A stretch of 10,933 nucleotides of DNA from Deltaproteobacteria bacterium (GTDB lineage Bacteria; Desulfobacterota; DAOWOC01): contig DAOWOC010000010.1 of NCBI GenBank assembly GCA_030642225.1, positions 1 through 10,933 on the forward strand. The letters run 5' to 3'. The notes under the pieces were generated by a model. The model did no database searches. It had not been told where the DNA came from and worked only from the letters and a program-made list of their open reading frames with translations. A program made the translations under genes and the position numbers. Of this stretch, positions 1,275 through 10,933 are shown in pieces. Every line of letters starts with the position of its first letter. Position 1 is the stretch's first letter.

Positions 1275-2546
<1,272 letters not shown>

Positions 2547-2592
2547 TTATCATATAACAGTTTATTATCAATTTTTTTAAAATTTATAAGTC

Positions 2593-3753
2593 TTATATAA
2601 ACGATTTTAACTTATCAGCCATATTTGTTTTTTCCCATGGAAAGCCTTCTTTGTCATCTCTGCCAAAATGACCGTATGCTGACGTCATCCTGTATATTGG
2701 TCTTAACAGATCAAGGTATTTAATAATGGGTCTTGGCCTGAGGTCAAAAACCTCCTGAATGATTTCGGAAATTCTGTCATCATTTAGAACACCTGTGCCA
2801 AATGTCTGAGTCATCACAGAAACAGGCCTGGCAACGCCGATTGCATAGGCTAACTGAAGCTCACATTTCTTTGCGAGACCTGCTGCAACTACATTTTTTG
2901 CTATATGCCGCGCCATATAGGATGCGCTTCTATCTACTTTTGAAGGATCTTTCCCTGAAAAACAGCCGCCGCCATGGCTCCCCTGACCACCATAAGTGTC
3001 TACAATAATCTTGCGTCCCGTAAGACCGCAATCGCCCTGTGGTCCACCTACTACAAAACGGCCTGTGGGATTTATAAAAAATTTTGTATTATTATCAAGC
3101 AAATCAGCAGGAAGCACCTTTTTTATAATTTCTTCAAACACCCCTTCATGTATTTTTTTATTAGATACCTCAGGCGTATGCTGTGTTGAAATCACAATGG
3201 CTTCTATCCGTTTGGGACAATTATCTTCATATTCTATAGTGACCTGACTTTTTCCATCAGGACGCAAAAAATCAAGCACACCATCCTTTCTGCACTTAGT
3301 AAGCCCTTTAGTAAGCTTATGGGCAAAAGAGATGGGCATTGGCATCATTTCCGAGGTTTCATCTGTTGCAAAACCAAACATCAGTCCCTGATCTCCGGCA
3401 CCCTGCTCATCTTCTATCTCACGATCAACGCCCTGGGCAATATCCGGGGATTGTTTATCAATAGTAGTAATCACTGCGCAAGTATGATGGTCAAACCCCA
3501 TCCTTGCATCTGTGTACCCTATCTCTTTTATGGTTTCACGAACAACACTTTGCATGTCAACATAGCATTCTGTTGTAATTTCACCGGCAATGAGTGCAAG
3601 CCCTGTTGTAACAAGGGTTTCGCATGCAACCCTTGCTTTTTTATCATTTTTAATTATTTCATCAAGTATTGCATCTGATATGGAATCAGCGATTTTATCG
3701 GGATGACCTTCTGTTACAGATTCTGATGTAAATAAATAGTTGCTTTTACCCAT
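2593..3753 (-). CDS. metK: S-adenosylmethionine synthetase (methionine adenosyltransferase)
   Basis: The enzyme makes SAM from ATP and methionine in the cytoplasm, working as a tetramer. Family signatures are present in order: [20 protein letters not shown] near the N-terminus with HPDK at 17-20, GAGDQG (118-123), and the glycine-rich loop [19 protein letters not shown] beginning at about 261. Length is 386 residues, normal for the family. I chose ATG 3753 because it begins [12 protein letters not shown], matching the usual N-terminus, and has AAGGA six bases upstream; an in-frame ATG at 3768 would add five residues with no better signal. It starts 17 nt after the DUF502 stop, so it is expressed as part of the pan operon. 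No separate SAM-responsive riboswitch fits in that gap. Confidence 0.97.
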
Positions 3754-3770
3754 TTTTATTCCTTTCATAC

Positions 3771-4394
3771 TTATTCATTGTTAGACATAGGCGTAAATAT
3801 GCCACCTGACATTATTATCTTAAAAGCATCTTCTACCCTAATATCAAGGTCAATCACATCCTTTTCAGGAACAAGCAGATAAAACCCTGACGTTGGATTT
3901 GGGGTAGTCGGCACAAAAACATTCAACATATTTTCTAAGCTTTCATGTTTTAACAAACCCCTTACCTTACCAGTCACAAAACCCAAAGTATATATCCCTT
4001 TTCTCGGATATTCAAGAAGTATTACACGATTAAAATTTTGCCCTCTGCTGGTAAAAATAGCCTCAACCAATTGTTTTATTCCCTGATAAACAGTGTTTAC
4101 AAGTGGAATATATCCTACGATCAATTCTCCATATAGAACCAGTTTATGGCCAATGTAATTTTTAACCATTATCCCTGTAAAAAGGGTAATGATTAAGATA
4201 AGAATTATTCCAAGACCTGGGATATGAATATGCAAAATAGTTTCAGGTCTTAAAAAATGAGGGAGGAGTTTAATGGTTTTGTCCATCAGTGAGATAAGAA
4301 AATGTATTACATAAAGAGTGACACCTAATGGAATCAGCACTAATAGACCAGCCAGAAAATAACCTTTAATTCTGTTCTTAAATTTGTTAATCAA
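3771..4394 (-). CDS. DUF502 family inner-membrane protein
   Basis: This 207-residue protein matches the DUF502 (COG2928) family, whose biochemical role is unknown to me. After a basic N-terminus ([12 protein letters not shown]) there is a membrane segment at about 12-36 and a second at about 60-78, preceded by the family's IPGLG motif. A conserved [15 protein letters not shown] stretch follows (97-111). The C-terminal part (about 120-200) is a soluble beta-rich domain with [15 protein letters not shown] and [12 protein letters not shown]. The start is TTG at 4394: a TAG stop lies four codons upstream in the same frame and there is no ATG before the first membrane segment. The ribosome site is weak, with AGGA about 18 bases away inside the panD stop region, so coupling to panD (15 nt gap) is likely. 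It is embedded in the pan-metK operon. Confidence 0.9.
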
Positions 4395-4409: not shown

Positions 4410-4778
4410 TTATCCTGCAAGGGCAGTCAAGTTTTTTTGCCTGTTATTTTCATCCATATATATAAGTGAAGGTTTATGGGTGTTAATCTTATTTTCTTCA
4501 ATCATTGCAAAAGTAGCGATGATTACGATATCACCCTTTTTTGCTTTGTGGGCAGCAGCTCCATTTGTAGAAATAACCCCGCTTCCTCTCGCACCTTCTA
4601 TGGCATATGTGGAAAAACGCTCTCCATTTGTCACATTCCAGACATCTATTTTTTCATAAGGAAGAATATTGGCTGCTTCCAAAAGATTTTTATCAATGCT
4701 CAGACTACCTTCATAATGAAGATCAGCGCTTGTTACAGTTGCTCGATGTATCTTTGATTTAAGCATTATTCTTTGCAT
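4410..4778 (-). CDS. panD: Aspartate 1-decarboxylase (precursor)
   Basis: PanD decarboxylates L-aspartate to beta-alanine, the amine half of pantothenate. It is a pyruvoyl enzyme made as a proenzyme that cleaves itself between Gly24 and Ser25. That site is present exactly as in E. coli (DLHYEGS, residues 19-25). Also visible are K9 and H11 in KSKIHR, the [10 protein letters not shown] segment, and [12 protein letters not shown] with the tetramer-forming core. Length is 122 residues (family about 115-140). The ATG at 4778 has a good AGGGAGA site six bases upstream. It lies 12 nt after panC and 15 nt before the DUF502 start, so it is cotranscribed. Ser25 becomes the pyruvoyl group. Confidence 0.97.
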
Positions 4779-4790
4779 TTCAATCTCCCT

Positions 4791-5648
4791 TTATACCCCA
4801 AAATCAAGTATGCAATTATCTATGAGCCTTGTTGACCCTATAAAAACCGCAAGAGCGAGCAGTGTTTTCTGTTTTATCTTTTCCACCGGCTCAAGTGTTT
4901 CCGTGTCACACAACTGCACATAATCTATCTTAATACATGATTTTGAAAGCAGTTCATTTTTTACAGCATGAATAATTTTTTTACAATCATTTTCATTCAT
5001 GGAAACCATTCTTTTTGCTAACTCAATACTTTTTTTCAGACCAAGCGCAGCTTTTCTTTCCTCAACGCTTAAATAAATATTTCTGGAACTCATGGCAAGA
5101 CCGTCCGTCTCTCTTACTATTGGCCTGCCTATAACCGTTACTGACATATTTAGATCTGTTACCATCTGTTTAATAGTGACGAGCTGTTGAAAATCCTTTT
5201 CACCAAAAACAGCAATGTCGGGTTTTACAATATTGAAAAGTTTGGAAACAATTGTTGTTACTCCATTAAAATGGCCCGGTCTGCTGGCCCCGCAAAGATA
5301 TTTTGTAACCTTTCCGACACTTACTCCTGTTTGAAAATTATCAGGATACATATCTTTGTGTTCAGGATTAAAGACAATATCAACCCCTGCCTGCTTTACA
5401 AATTTTAAATCACGATCAATATCCCTTGGATATTTTTGAAAATCCTCATTTGGCCCGAATTGAATAGCATTGACAAAAATACTAACAATAACCAGATCGC
5501 ACCTGTTTCGCACATATTTCATTAATTCAATATGCCCGTCATGGAAATACCCCATGGTTGGAACAAAACCGATCGACTTGCCATGCTGTCTTATCTCAAG
5601 AGACCGCTTCTGCATAAGTTTTATGTCTCTAATGTGTTGAATAACCAT
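4791..5648 (-). CDS. panC: Pantothenate synthetase (pantoate--beta-alanine ligase)
   Basis: PanC condenses pantoate with beta-alanine using ATP, via a pantoyl-adenylate, in the cytoplasm. Nucleotidyl-transferase motifs are clear: GFVPTMGYFHDGH (HIGH-like, residues 27-39), VSIFVNAIQFGPNEDF, GEKDFQQL, and RETDGLAMSSRNIYL (KMSKS-like). The usual VNPxQF is VNAIQF here, so a normally conserved Pro is Ala next to the substrate-contacting Gln. I prefer ATG 5648 (285 residues), which puts 26 residues before GFVPTMG as in relatives and follows GAGAGGG, although the spacing is only 1-2 nt. An in-frame ATG at 5681 would give 296 residues, but it has no Shine-Dalgarno and sits at the base of a small hairpin (5681-5696). 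It is the first gene of the operon; panB is not in the window. Confidence 0.96.
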   Translation of the reverse strand: MVIQHIRDIKLMQKRSLEIRQHGKSIGFVPTMGYFHDGHIELMKYVRNRCDLVIVSIFVNAIQFGPNEDFQKYPRDIDRDLKFVKQAGVDIVFNPEHKDMYPDNFQTGVSVGKVTKYLCGASRPGHFNGVTTIVSKLFNIVKPDIAVFGEKDFQQLVTIKQMVTDLNMSVTVIGRPIVRETDGLAMSSRNIYLSVEERKAALGLKKSIELAKRMVSMNENDCKKIIHAVKNELLSKSCIKIDYVQLCDTETLEPVEKIKQKTLLALAVFIGSTRLIDNCILDFGV

Positions 5649-5695
5649 TCCCTCTCTGACAAATAAAAAAGGCCTTTCCATGAGCCATAAAGCTC

Positions 5696-5759
5696 AAAAA
5701 AAGACCAGTCACACAACCTTAAAATCATTTTAAAATATATTTTATGTTGAGTCCCGGTC
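5696..5759 (-). terminator. Intrinsic terminator (attenuator) in the panC leader
   Basis: In the leader RNA, GACCGGGACUCAAC (5759-5746) can pair with GUUGUGUGACUGGUC (5717-5703). This gives 12 pairs in blocks of 6, 2 and 4, interrupted by a 1x2 and a 1x1 internal loop. An inner U-AAAAU/AUUUU-A stem (5744-5739 with 25-20 of the same hundred) extends it. Seven U (5702-5696) follow at once. The 5' arm is shared with the bulged-A hairpin at 5750-5777, so the two structures exclude each other. It lies about 48 nt before the preferred panC start. Pairing was found by eye; folding energy was not computed. Confidence 0.6.
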
Positions 5760-5777
5760 CTCATGAGGATCCAGGCT
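5750..5777 (-). promoter_or_regulatory. Candidate pan-motif leader RNA (bulged-A hairpin upstream of panC)
   Basis: The leader RNA forms a hairpin with a CAUG loop (5765-5762), stem UCCU/AGGA, a single bulged A (5770) on the 5' side, then CCUGG/CCGGG with one G-U pair, a second bulged A (5752) on the 3' side, and a closing GA/CU. From memory, the published pan RNA motif is a stem with two conserved bulged adenosines, found only upstream of pantothenate synthesis genes and including deltaproteobacteria, so position and shape both fit. It begins about 14 nt after the predicted transcription start. Its 3' arm is the 5' arm of the downstream terminator. The ligand or protein partner of the motif is not known to me. 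Confidence 0.6.
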
Positions 5778-5797
5778 GCATATCTTAATATAAAATA

Positions 5798-5826
5798 ATT
5801 ATATTACATTAACAAGGAAATGTCAA
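5798..5826 (-). promoter_or_regulatory. Consensus sigma-70 promoter of the panC-panD-DUF502-metK-ahcY operon
   Basis: Read on the minus strand, TTGACA (5826-5821) and TATAAT (5803-5798) are exact consensus hexamers with a 17-bp spacer. Transcription would start near 5791, only about 14 nt before the bulged-A hairpin. The -35 box lies 7 bp beyond the stop of the CoA-transferase gene. Such a strong promoter fits a constitutive start whose output is then set by the leader attenuator. Confidence 0.85.
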
Positions 5827-5833
5827 TAAATTT

Positions 5834-7069
5834 TTATATTATCATATCCTTTCTCAATTGTTCAATCTCCTGTTTATTATAACCGATTTCCTCAAGCACT
5901 TCATCAGTATGCTGCCCCAAAGTAGGGGCAGCTATGGTCGTGCGTGCAGGTGTCTTACTGAAATGGACAGGATAACCCGGCATCTTTATTGTCCCGAAGT
6001 CAGGATGCTCAAAATCAACTATATAATCATTATCCAGGGCCTGTTTATCTTTTAAAACATCTTTAAATCTCTGGATAGGACTGAACATTAGAAAATTTTT
6101 CCTGAAGATTTCCATCCATTCGTCAAGTGTTTTAGTTGCAAAGACTTCATCAAAAAGACCAACCAGTTCGGGACAATTCCTTGTCCTTTGCTCTTCATCA
6201 CAAAACCTGGGATCATTTATCAGATGTTCCATCCCTGTTGCCTTGCATAATGTTTCCCAATATTTTTCAGGGGGGTGATGTACCCCGATAAACCATTTAC
6301 CGTCTTTACTGCAAAAATTATTGCGAAGCGGCGTATTATGAAATCTATCCCATGGAATGACAGCATCAACGCCCTTCTGGCTTGTAGCCATAATATTTGC
6401 ATACATGAGCCATAGGGCTGTACTGTAAAGGGAAGCATGAATCTCCTGACCTATGCCATGTCTTTCCCTTACGAGAAGCGCTGTTAATATGGCGTGGCTT
6501 GCAGCAATTGCTGTTGCCTGATCAAGTACTGCAAGGTGTATAAGAGATGGTTCTTTTGTCCCTGCAATAAACATCATGCCTGATCTTGCCTGACCAAGCG
6601 GATCAAATGCGCCGATATCCGCAAATGGTCCATCAGGACCATATCCTGAGACATTTGCATGGATCAGTTTTGGATATTTTTTTGAGAGAGTTTCATAATC
6701 AATACCAAGCCTTGTCTTTGTGGTTTTTCTTAAATTTGTCATAAAGACGTCTGCATTTTTTAAAAGTTTATGAAATATTTCCTTACCCCTGTCTGTTTTT
6801 ATATCAAGGGTGATTCCCCTTTTGCTCCGGTTGGATATATCATACATAAGACTTCTATCATGAGGCAGTTTAAAATCAAATGCCCCTATATTCGTCCATA
6901 TACGTTCAGGATCGCCTTCTTTTGTCTCAATCTTTATTACTTCTGCGCCCAAGTCACCCAATATTGCAGTAGCACCGGGACCGGCATGAAATATTCCATA
7001 TTCCAGGATACGAATCCCTTCAAGAGGTTTATGTCCATTCACTGTTTCATCAGTACCTACATTTCCCAT
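5834..7069 (-). CDS. CaiB/BaiF (family III) CoA-transferase
   Basis: This 411-residue protein is a family III CoA-transferase, which moves CoA between carboxylic acids through a covalent aspartyl-CoA intermediate. Seen in order: KPLEGIRILEYG at the start, FHAGPGATAILGDLGAEVIKIE (27-48), a KRGITLDIKTDRGKEIF segment (83-99), DVFMTNLRKTTKTRLGIDYETL, and NVSGYGPDGPFADIGAFDPLGQA (139-161). HLAVLDQATAIAASHAIL follows, with D183 as the probable catalytic aspartate, and near the C-terminus the typical APTLGQHTDEVL. The CoA donor and acceptor cannot be told from sequence; anaerobes use such enzymes for aromatic, succinyl, carnitine or oxalyl substrates. The ATG at 7069 has GGGAGAG about six bases upstream. 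It is a single gene, divergent from the transglutaminase-like gene, with no strong terminator before the pan promoter. Confidence 0.93.
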   Translation of the reverse strand: MGNVGTDETVNGHKPLEGIRILEYGIFHAGPGATAILGDLGAEVIKIETKEGDPERIWTNIGAFDFKLPHDRSLMYDISNRSKRGITLDIKTDRGKEIFHKLLKNADVFMTNLRKTTKTRLGIDYETLSKKYPKLIHANVSGYGPDGPFADIGAFDPLGQARSGMMFIAGTKEPSLIHLAVLDQATAIAASHAILTALLVRERHGIGQEIHASLYSTALWLMYANIMATSQKGVDAVIPWDRFHNTPLRNNFCSKDGKWFIGVHHPPEKYWETLCKATGMEHLINDPRFCDEEQRTRNCPELVGLFDEVFATKTLDEWMEIFRKNFLMFSPIQRFKDVLKDKQALDNDYIVDFEHPDFGTIKMPGYPVHFSKTPARTTIAAPTLGQHTDEVLEEIGYNKQEIEQLRKDMII

Positions 7070-8239: not shown

Positions 8240-8590
8240 TTATTCCCCTTTCATATTTTTTTTAGGTTTAATTTTTCTCGGCGGTGCATCCCTCCATAAT
8301 CCTTCAGTTTTAAAGGACTCCCATGCAAATTTCAGCCACTTTATAAGTGATGCCGCAAGCCAGAGCGCCCATGCAAGCATCATTATCCTGTATGCAATAA
8401 GAGGCAGAGAAAGAGTAAACGGCCTTGGCATAACAGGGCCTGATTTGTCTATATACCATTTCAACATGCTGCTTGTTGACATATTACCGGCAATATGCAT
8501 GTCAGGGAGATTCAACAGCCCGGATTCAACCGCTGCATAAAGACATACCAGAAGATTATCCCCCAGATTACAAGGCCCGACTGCATACAA
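8240..8590 (-). pseudogene. Frame-displaced C-terminal end of the large membrane protein
   Basis: This frame is open from just after a TAA (8591-8593) to the stop at 8240. The part that reads as protein starts about at YAAVESGLLNLPDMHIAGN and continues through a KWYIDKSG segment, a strongly hydrophobic helix (LSLPLIAYRIMMLAWALWLA) and a basic tail. It looks like the natural end of the protein encoded at 8512-10933: the upstream frame stops abruptly with QRLNPGC just where this one becomes protein-like, and relatives I recall have the LPDMxIAGN and WYxDxSG segments in one chain with the preceding helices. It is not likely to be a separate gene: the only possible start is TTG at 8590, inside the other frame, without a ribosome site. 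Confidence 0.7.
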
Positions 8591-10933
8591 TTAAATGTAA
8601 ACCAGTTTTCAGGCGGTTTTTTCTCTTGTCTCAAGCCAAGCGCAATAAGCCATCCGACAATGATTATTGAAAAAATGATATGCACCTGTGTCATGCCTAT
8701 AAGGAGCAGGAACCAGTGCAGTGTTTTAAGAGGTGTCAGACGTATGCGGCCAAGGCCAAATGATATTATAAAAATTGCCATGACCTCGCCCCAGAATAAT
8801 ACAGCAGGCCCCATGAGTGGACCGTGGGTAAAAAGAGTCCATCTACTGCGGGGCATTTGTATTTTCATCTCGATATTTACCGCCTGTTCTCCAATATCAA
8901 TCAAAGGTGGCCTTGTGATAAAACGTAATGATCTATTCTGATTCCATTTGATCATAACCTTTTGTATGCCCGGTTCAACAGGGATTATTGCTTTTTTATC
9001 CTGAAGCGTGATGGGGAGTGATCTTTTATTTATTGTTATTGATTGGAGCTCAGCGCCTTCAGGCAGGGTAATAACCTGCTCGCCCCCACGGCTTGCCTTA
9101 ACATTCATTTCAAGGGTGGAACCGATGAGGCGTTTCCCTGGTATGGATATAATTTTAACACTGTCTATTGTAATCCATTTTCCGGGTATGGGTTCAAGCC
9201 TTTTAACATTAATCTCAATATTTTCTCCGGGCCATGGACGCCATTTGGGTCTCCATAATCCTTGTTCATCTTGCTGACGTACAGCGGATATCCCTTTGAT
9301 ATCGCAATGCCAGGCAGTATTTGCATCAAGCACCCATTCCTCAATAAAATCAGTTGTCATAGGCGCTGTCAGTTTTAATAAAGGCGTTTGTTTTAAAGTG
9401 GATACAAAGGTAAAACCATCCCTCCACGGCTCAATATTAATTATAGCCTTACCATCCTTTATTCTCACAGAAGAGGTGTTTACCGATTCACCTTGCAGCA
9501 GGGGAATACTTAATATTATTGGCGTTCCTTTTGGCGAAAGCCTTTTGACCCTTGTTGTCACATGCCATGAATAACCGAGTCTTAATATACGTGTTACCTT
9601 TGAAAACGCAGTGAGATTTTTATCCAATACTGCGGTTCCATCTGATTTTTTAACAGGTTCTCTTGCAGTCAGTCTTATATTGGCACCCGGCAAACCATCA
9701 TCCTGCAAACCCTCAATATCCCATGTTTTAGAACTGTATTTAAATTGATGCGGCTTTATATGAATATGCAGATTAATAAGATCACTTTCCCCTGCCGGGC
9801 CGTTAAGGATAACATTATGTATCCCCTTGCTGATCCTCAACCATAATATGCCGTTATTATCATAAAACACTGCTCCGTTTGAACCATCTACAAGAATGCT
9901 TGAAGGGAGCCATGATTCACGTGAACCCGGCAAAGGTATGCCGGTTGTCTGCATTGCATGGACTTTCATGTTAATCATAAGTTTTTTATCAATAATTATG
10001 GACATGGTCTCAATATCCGCACACCATGGGATACAATCCGGTTTTTGTATAAGCCTGTCTTTAAGGTTGTTTAAAAGTTCAGGTGATGGATATTGAGCAG
10101 ATGCATAAACAGGTATAAGGAGAAAAATAATAAAACCGACTGAAATCAGGCCATTTAATCCAGGGACAATCTTAATGCTTTTAAATCCTGATATCTTTAA
10201 AATAAACAAAGCTGTAAGTATAACCTTAATAAAAGATAAAAACAGGTTGGCAAAAGGTGGTATAAGCCACAGTTTAATATCCTGATCCTTATCAACCGGT
10301 CCATTCCAACTCATCTGGATACTTTTCCATTGCCATGAAGGGAGTCCAGGGCCGGTCTGTACAACCGCCCTGCCCTTAACATCCATATTATCAGGGTAGG
10401 TATATCGTTGAACAGCGCCTGACAAAATACTCTTTGATAATCTTCCAGACTTATACCCCCTTTTTTGTTTATCAAGATTCCTTTTTTCATCATAAGACAT
10501 TGCAGTATCTTGTTCCTGAACTCTTCCAGCATGCTGAATCATGGAGCCACGCTCATATTGATATTCATGCCCTTTTAGTTGTGGATAAATACCTGTTTTT
10601 AATAAATAGATCATAAAAGGAACGGCTATTATCAATAATACGACAATCCCTCCACCCTTTAAAAAACCGGCTATTTTTTTAATTTTTCCATCAGGCAGAA
10701 CCTTTTGAAGAGCGATTATGGCGATGATAAATAACCATACAAATTTTGGAGCCCCCGGGTCAGGATTGGTAATGACAAGGGTAAAAAAAGCAACAATGGA
10801 CCATTTGTATGACCAGAGTTTGTATACTGCAATTGTTGTTATGAGTACGAAAAATATATCAAGAAGCGACCATCCGCCAACCCATGTTCTTGATACCTTG
10901 TCACAGCCTGATGCAGTAAAAAGTGACCACCCC
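8512..10933 (-). CDS. Large multi-spanning membrane protein of unknown function (5' end outside window, 3' end frameshifted)
   Basis: The frame is open from the right window edge (codons from 10932) to a TGA at 8512, 806 residues here, with no stop. A TTG at 10635 is an internal codon, not the start. Residues 1-120 hold about four hydrophobic segments, beginning at the edge with GGWSLLDIFFV. A polar stretch follows, then membrane segments at about 222-248 and 258-278, the second ending in a signal-peptide-like VYASAQYPS. The next ~350 residues form a beta-rich, presumably periplasmic domain with a CIPWC pair (300-304) near its start. Further hydrophobic helices follow from about residue 690. 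It resembles long hypothetical membrane proteins of Proteobacteria that I cannot name more precisely. The last helix and tail lie in another frame (8240-8590), so the gene has a frameshift or a sequence error. Confidence 0.75.
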   Translation of the reverse strand, partial: GWSLFTASGCDKVSRTWVGGWSLLDIFFVLITTIAVYKLWSYKWSIVAFFTLVITNPDPGAPKFVWLFIIAIIALQKVLPDGKIKKIAGFLKGGGIVVLLIIAVPFMIYLLKTGIYPQLKGHEYQYERGSMIQHAGRVQEQDTAMSYDEKRNLDKQKRGYKSGRLSKSILSGAVQRYTYPDNMDVKGRAVVQTGPGLPSWQWKSIQMSWNGPVDKDQDIKLWLIPPFANLFLSFIKVILTALFILKISGFKSIKIVPGLNGLISVGFIIFLLIPVYASAQYPSPELLNNLKDRLIQKPDCIPWCADIETMSIIIDKKLMINMKVHAMQTTGIPLPGSRESWLPSSILVDGSNGAVFYDNNGILWLRISKGIHNVILNGPAGESDLINLHIHIKPHQFKYSSKTWDIEGLQDDGLPGANIRLTAREPVKKSDGTAVLDKNLTAFSKVTRILRLGYSWHVTTRVKRLSPKGTPIILSIPLLQGESVNTSSVRIKDGKAIINIEPWRDGFTFVSTLKQTPLLKLTAPMTTDFIEEWVLDANTAWHCDIKGISAVRQQDEQGLWRPKWRPWPGENIEINVKRLEPIPGKWITIDSVKIISIPGKRLIGSTLEMNVKASRGGEQVITLPEGAELQSITINKRSLPITLQDKKAIIPVEPGIQKVMIKWNQNRSLRFITRPPLIDIGEQAVNIEMKIQMPRSRWTLFTHGPLMGPAVLFWGEVMAIFIISFGLGRIRLTPLKTLHWFLLLIGMTQVHIIFSIIIVGWLIALGLRQEKKPPENWFTFNCMQSGLVIWGIIFWYVFMQRLNPGC

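Follow-up and report, generated by a model that had tools for sequence, protein, structure and literature searches.

The leader of the panC-panD genes in the analysed DNA is, with good probability, a transcription attenuator of OFF polarity that is built on a single pan hairpin. The window, meaning the whole stretch analysed, comprises 10,933 nt of Deltaproteobacteria bacterium DNA (contig DAOWOC010000010.1). The leader is located on its minus strand between a CoA-transferase family III gene and panC-panD (Table 1), and panC-panD downstream of a pan element is the gene context in which the pan RNA was described by Weinberg et al. in 2010. Transcription probably starts near 5791, as placed from the position of the promoter. 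From there the leader runs through the pan hairpin, an AU-rich stretch, the segment CUGGUC, a run of seven uridines (U7), a strong stem-loop and the tract UUUUUUAUUU to panC. The most likely start codon of panC is the ATG at 5648, judging by the likeness of the encoded N-terminus to the PanC proteins of relatives; the start given in the list of open reading frames, ATG 5681, falls inside the terminator.

Table 1. Features of the panC leader and its surroundings; positions are those of the window.
Feature	Position	Strand	Evidence or remark
CoA-transferase family III gene	end 5834	-	same strand as the leader
Promoter TTGACA (5826-5821), 17 nt, TATAAT (5803-5798)	5798..5826	-	12/12 consensus bases
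Single pan hairpin, bulged A5770 and A5752	5749..5778	-	RF01749 27.9 bits; R2 26.1 bits; covariation
Proposed antiterminator, 5′ strand	5746..5761	-	pairs with 5717-5701; overlaps the pan 3′ arm
Proposed antiterminator, 3′ strand	5701..5717	-	overlaps the terminator 5′ arm at 5706-5701
Intrinsic terminator stem-loop	5671..5706	-	-18.8 kcal/mol, z -5.2, 0/200 shuffles
Terminator U-tract UUUUUUAUUU	5661..5670	-	sequence
panC	4791..5648	-	PF02569, E 2.8e-105
panD, aspartate decarboxylase	4410..4778	-	PF02261, E 1.1e-50

The accessible text of Weinberg et al. (2010, PMC2864571) describes the pan RNA (Rfam RF01749) as a stem interrupted by two highly conserved bulged adenosines, which sits upstream of panB, panC or the aspartate decarboxylase gene and occurs in tandem in most, not all, cases. 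The window element shares the two bulged adenosines in the stem and the position upstream of panC-panD. On the minus strand, positions 5778-5749 read CAG CCUGG A UCC UCAU GA GGA CCGGG A CUC. Pairs are formed between 5775-5771 and 5757-5753 and between 5769-5767 and 5760-5758, leaving A5770 and A5752 as bulges. The outermost basal pair would be a C.C, so that just two of the three basal pairs are able to form. No Rfam match was obtained in the window at the gathering cut-off. A relaxed search with RF01749, a tandem model of 92 positions, gave 27.9 bits against a cut-off of 36.2 (E 0.0044 for 251 nt). Between the window and the second hairpin of the model the alignment is almost base for base. 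The first hairpin of the model lands on the promoter, which is spurious, and the window pan is therefore taken to be a single hairpin. A tandem pan was rejected on this ground and on the single match in this region to the phylum-specific model R2 described below. Other low Rfam matches in the leader (greA, DdR10, 6S-Flavo, PyrR and others) lie far below their cut-offs and were disregarded.

At E ≤ 1, RF01749 matched in 25 of 59 genomes of the window's phylum, with three above the cut-off. The pan model also gives a match in the genome of Bacillus subtilis 168, which has a panB leader. Covariation was assessed in an alignment of 25 single hairpins, one of them that of the window. In this alignment 98.5% of the cells are paired and six pairs are changed on both sides, and either value was reached in none of 500 shuffles; the further pair types were equalled by 17 of the 500. 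The covariance model R2, made from the 24 others with the window left out, finds the window hairpin at 26.1 bits (E 2e-5), the next best match reaching 8.9 bits. In the window's own genome, which is about 66% complete, the hairpin is the sole R2 match up to E 10 (E 0.003). Of 395 genomes from the phylum, 198 have a match at E ≤ 0.1 to the model R1, in which the window is included. Named records in which this element precedes panB or panC include Syntrophobacterales, 'Deltaproteobacteria' and Deferribacteraceae. The original prediction of a pan-type hairpin with bulged A5770 and A5752 is thus borne out by the R2 score and the stem covariation. Checks had been proposed with it. The Rfam pan model does score here, although under the curated cut-off; compensatory changes occur on both sides of the pan stem, and in the relatives changes in the antiterminator strand go along with those in pan. 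By its sequence, the window element counts as a pan RNA as Weinberg described it, with one hairpin; it is a somewhat divergent member that lies below the cut-off of the tandem model.

The 3′ arm of pan can enter a competing pairing with a segment further downstream, consisting of the pairs 5759-5754/5708-5703, 5752-5751/5712-5711 and 5749-5746/5717-5714. This stem (5759-5746 with 5717-5703) has an energy of -15.3 kcal/mol (z -3.5, equalled by none of 200 shuffles), has a long AU-rich interior and is directly followed by U7 (5702-5696). U7 is itself located within the 5′ arm of the next stem-loop, 5706-5671, a 15-pair stem with one mismatch. As expected of an intrinsic terminator, 5706-5661 is a G+C-bearing stem-loop with a U-tract between promoter and gene; a simple consensus terminator scan reported neither this structure nor the terminator of the original prediction. 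Since both contain 5706-5703, the competing stem excludes the terminator and is antiterminator-like. In its full extent (5761-5746 with 5717-5701) the proposed antiterminator overlaps both pan and terminator and is mutually exclusive with each of them, the statistics for this being carried by the relatives. In the window, the duplex that the pan 3′ arm makes with the remaining leader stands out only modestly from shuffled sequence (93 of 2000 leader shuffles and 287 of 2000 pan-arm shuffles were as good), and the pan basal triplet is not used in it, unlike in most relatives. The putative attenuator is accordingly argued from the comparison with relatives, the window's own short duplex being weak evidence.

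For this comparison, 203 finder hits were reduced to 142 leaders: those that have panB, panC or panD no more than 700 nt away, together with nine listed loci, duplicates being removed. Outside the 142 are the loci L229, L232, L235 and L237, L218, L238, L246 and L275, L014 and L018, and L019, L027 and L243, the last three of which are probably not pan. Among the R1 matches listed, 30 were loci, 100 more were retrieved, 15 were already included and 5 were left out. The leader sample is biased to high-scoring matches. A pattern scan of the genome contigs returned at least 119 stretches; in just six of those listed, a pan-like hairpin closely precedes panB or panC.

A terminator of -8 kcal/mol or better is present downstream of pan in 128 of the 142 leaders, compared with 113 of 426 shuffles. 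At -12 kcal/mol the numbers are 120/142 and 62/426, and at -15 kcal/mol 93/142 and 34/426. The 14 leaders without a terminator at the -8 kcal/mol threshold include the second hits in L209 and L263, which resemble finder false positives and were counted as lacking one. The 5′ half of the terminator pairs with the 3′ strand and tail of its own pan at a mean of -15.5 kcal/mol, compared with -13.6 kcal/mol (sd 0.23) after permutation among leaders; none of 2000 permutations, which ignore kinship, reached the mean of the true pairs. In the control, the pan 5′ half against the terminator 5′ half, the mean was -8.5 kcal/mol. Sequence conservation keeps the ranks of individual leaders moderate (median 0.31, 13% in the best 5%; median z against shuffled terminators -1.6). 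The duplex takes at least 3 nt of the pan 3′ arm and at least 3 nt of the terminator 5′ arm in 125 of 128 leaders. Covariation links the pan basal triplet with its partner and with the terminator segment, as in TCG/CGA/TCG, TGG/CCA/TGG, GAG/CTC/GAG and CTG/CAG/CTG. Among the leaders with a triplet other than CGG, 12 of 17 pair fully with their own terminator, compared with 24% of 1020 swaps (mean energies -17.1 and -13.4). The three predicted structures, their mutual exclusivity and the same covarying arrangement in the relatives are established at the level of sequence and comparison. In five loci (L229, L232, L235, L237 and L252) pan nearly touches the panC start with no terminator between them, as if it covered the ribosome site.

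Equilibrium folding of growing transcripts gives first pan, then the antiterminator (0.95-1.00 at 3′ ends 5690-5674) and then pan together with the terminator. When pan is given a stabilising bonus of 3 kcal/mol, the antiterminator still reaches up to 0.88; with 6 kcal/mol it falls to 0.05 or less. At equilibrium the finished leader contains pan and the terminator (1.00), whether or not the bonus is applied. Since the end state is identical without a bonus, at 3 and at 6 kcal/mol, any switch must be kinetic. We propose that RNA polymerase would produce pan first. On emerging, GUUG and CUGGUCUU (within 5717-5701) would invade the pan 3′ arm (5761-5746) to form the antiterminator, which would occupy the base of the terminator 5706-5671 and allow transcription of panC-panD. 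Binding that stabilises pan would make the invasion fail, so that the terminator would form and transcription would stop near 5661. Stabilised pan would thereby free the terminator and turn panC OFF, as end-product feedback would need. In cells, such a leader would terminate transcription when a ligand stabilises pan, and pan would report sufficient pantothenate or CoA.

In OFF-type attenuators and riboswitches, a bound sensor structure prevents the antiterminator and allows termination. TRAP-trp in Bacillus subtilis is, in the accounts available, an OFF-type transcription attenuator. The proposed mechanism resembles it in that a stabilised sensor blocks the antiterminator and differs in that the sensor in the window is a small pan hairpin. 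In PyrR-binding attenuators, a small protein-bound hairpin prevents the antiterminator; there the RNA and the genes are different, and the PyrR Rfam model reaches 16.1 of 54 bits in the leader.

The original prediction had also described mutually exclusive structures and an apparent transcription attenuator upstream of panC, with the roles reversed: pan was the antiterminator, the 5759-5703 stem with U7 was the terminator, and stabilised pan would turn panC ON. The exclusivity holds, as pan and the 5759-5703 pairing share the pan 3′ arm, and the attenuator is supported by the terminator in 128 of 142 related leaders. The pairing exists as well, it is stable and U7 follows it directly in the window. 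Its role as a terminator is not supported. Its interior is long and AU-rich, and a U-tract after the equivalent pairing was found in 1 of 128 leaders, the window alone, the other 127 relatives having none. In all 128, the 3′ strand of that pairing stops short of the end of the downstream terminator hairpin. Formation of pan, moreover, leaves the stronger terminator 5706-5671, which the original prediction had overlooked, free to act, so a stop would be expected in both states of that scheme. Pan is hence unlikely to be the antiterminator, ON polarity falls with the reversed roles and is improbable, and the 5759-5703 pairing is most likely the antiterminator. With this change the polarity that had seemed odd for end-product feedback is no longer so. 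The stem-loop 5706-5671 might instead serve only as the terminator of the upstream CoA-transferase gene, which ends at 5834 on the same strand, pan acting in some other way. This is very improbable in view of the perfect promoter between that gene and the leader and the order of pan and then terminator in 128 of 142 leaders. A short frame starting at ATG 5781, with six codons through pan, would allow ribosome-mediated attenuation by a leader peptide. The chance of this is minimal, as no good ribosome site is visible and the hairpins of most relatives start CCGCTTGGATCC, without that ATG. ON polarity, the upstream-gene terminator and the leader peptide were all rejected on this evidence.

A different matter is what stabilises pan. 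The same OFF attenuator could use pan as the site of a regulatory protein rather than as a metabolite aptamer, and we give this nearly even chances. The hairpin is small, about 30 nt with two bulged adenosines, and the accessible text of Weinberg et al. (2010, PMC2864571) suggests a dimeric protein site from the tandem arrangement. Against it, no such protein is known and the elements modelled in the window's phylum are single hairpins. Binding by a protein is compatible with the OFF mechanism, in which the sensor alone would differ.

A second group of pan loci was seeded from Anaerovorax sp. IOR16 (L062, in G397). RF01749 at E ≤ 0.001 matched in 24 of 148 genomes from its class and in 152 of 398 from its phylum, and among the matches listed the whole tandem model was spanned. 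The first gene downstream, assigned by tblastn in 133 loci, encodes a DUF2520 protein in 65, PanC in 24, PanB in 19, an ECF transporter S component in 16, a type II pantothenate kinase in two and PanD in one, with none found in six; some of these six are artefacts, since loci lying at the edges of contigs, L305, L306 and L421 at least, were mis-registered. In this group a terminator is present in 97 of 102 biosynthetic leaders (first gene panB, panC, panD or DUF2520 within 420 nt, duplicates removed). Their own duplexes have a mean of -15.1 kcal/mol, compared with -12.5 kcal/mol (sd 0.27) after permutation; none of 2000 permutations, again ignoring kinship, reached the mean of the true pairs. 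The DUF2520/Rossmann dehydrogenase gene, the commonest first gene of these tandem leaders (65/133), often stands before panB and is a candidate for a ketopantoate reductase gene. PF10728 was confirmed in L293 and L295, and L218, L238, L246 and L275 of the window's phylum, where a DUF2520-like gene comes first and a U-tailed stem is visible by eye, look similar.

In 11 loci of the second group, an ECF S-component gene starts at most about 26 nt from pan. All six of these genes that were scanned match PF12822. At 10 of the 11 loci GGAG(G) lies in or directly against the basal 3′ strand of pan, which reads as an OFF switch in which the formed hairpin would block the Shine-Dalgarno sequence. A pantothenate kinase gene follows in 5 of the 11, four of type III and one of type II, three of them confirmed with NCBIfam; in four further loci, L363, L379, L413 and L421, the ECF S gene and a type III kinase gene are both located 0.8-1.6 kb downstream. 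NCBIfam gave no pantothenate-transporter name for four ECF S genes scanned and sub-threshold folate or thiamine matches in two. From the neighbouring kinases, the S component may well carry pantothenate. Some of these frames lack ATG at the expected place: L391, L393 and L416 show ATA 8 nt past the pan match, and L388 shows ATT; L307, L308 and L310 have ATG where these four show rare start codons beside the switch.

That synthesis, uptake and kinase would share one control element points to a signal beyond the pantothenate kinase step, for which CoA is the simplest choice; the second group thus hints at a signal downstream of pantothenate. Tentatively, and at less than even odds, pan may act in general to switch off the supply of coenzyme A. 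It would act by terminator release at pantothenate synthesis and by covering the ribosome site at the ECF transporter (probably for pantothenate) and pantothenate kinase, with CoA or a late precursor as the signal, sensed by the RNA or by a CoA-responsive protein. A 2022 review, in the part accessible (PMC9971707), names CoA as a ligand conspicuously missing from the riboswitches.

The window element differs from the described motif in being single and below the Rfam cut-off and in being tied to a terminator and an antiterminator, which are absent from the accessible description in PMC2864571. Two transcriptome papers, in their accessible portions, merely list pan before panB (PMC5670726, PMC4342826). 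The searchable literature (including PMC11487621, PMC12570885 and PMC13273304) names no mechanism or ligand of pan; Weinberg's motif notes may mention a terminator. Term look-ups in PMC3766115, PMC2965389 and PMC11109978 gave no hit. The pan class has been catalogued since 2010, and to the extent of the searchable literature both the polarity and the broader set of genes are new. The comparison offers a definite, testable polarity, pan formed being OFF, and two outputs, which are the release of a terminator and the blocking of a Shine-Dalgarno sequence. The DUF2520 dehydrogenases, ECF S components and pantothenate kinases steer the search for the ligand to the end of the CoA pathway.

Further gene arrangements were seen in the pan loci. 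In L279 (also L278, L280, L281, L285, L286 and L014) pan lies upstream of a SIS-domain gene (hexuloisomerase-like), as it also does in L018. In loci of the L279 type, an OMP-decarboxylase/HUMPS domain fused to an RraA-like aldolase domain comes next (Pfam on L279 only), and in L279 the ketopantoate reductase (PanE) gene follows. These loci may belong to a side pathway in ketopantoate or formaldehyde metabolism that is tied to pantothenate synthesis. In L282 and L283, pan is followed by an aldehyde:ferredoxin oxidoreductase gene and then panB (Pfam for the L282 oxidoreductase and the L283 PanB), and in L284 by a small gene that looks like MoaD/ThiS by eye and then panB. In the window, a 707-residue frame at 8512-10635 (minus strand) is without Pfam match. 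Genes for a DUF502 protein, S-adenosylmethionine synthetase and adenosylhomocysteinase trail panC-panD (window 1275-4394, minus strand). As they lie downstream on the same strand, the methyl-cycle genes among them may also be under the attenuator if they are cotranscribed.
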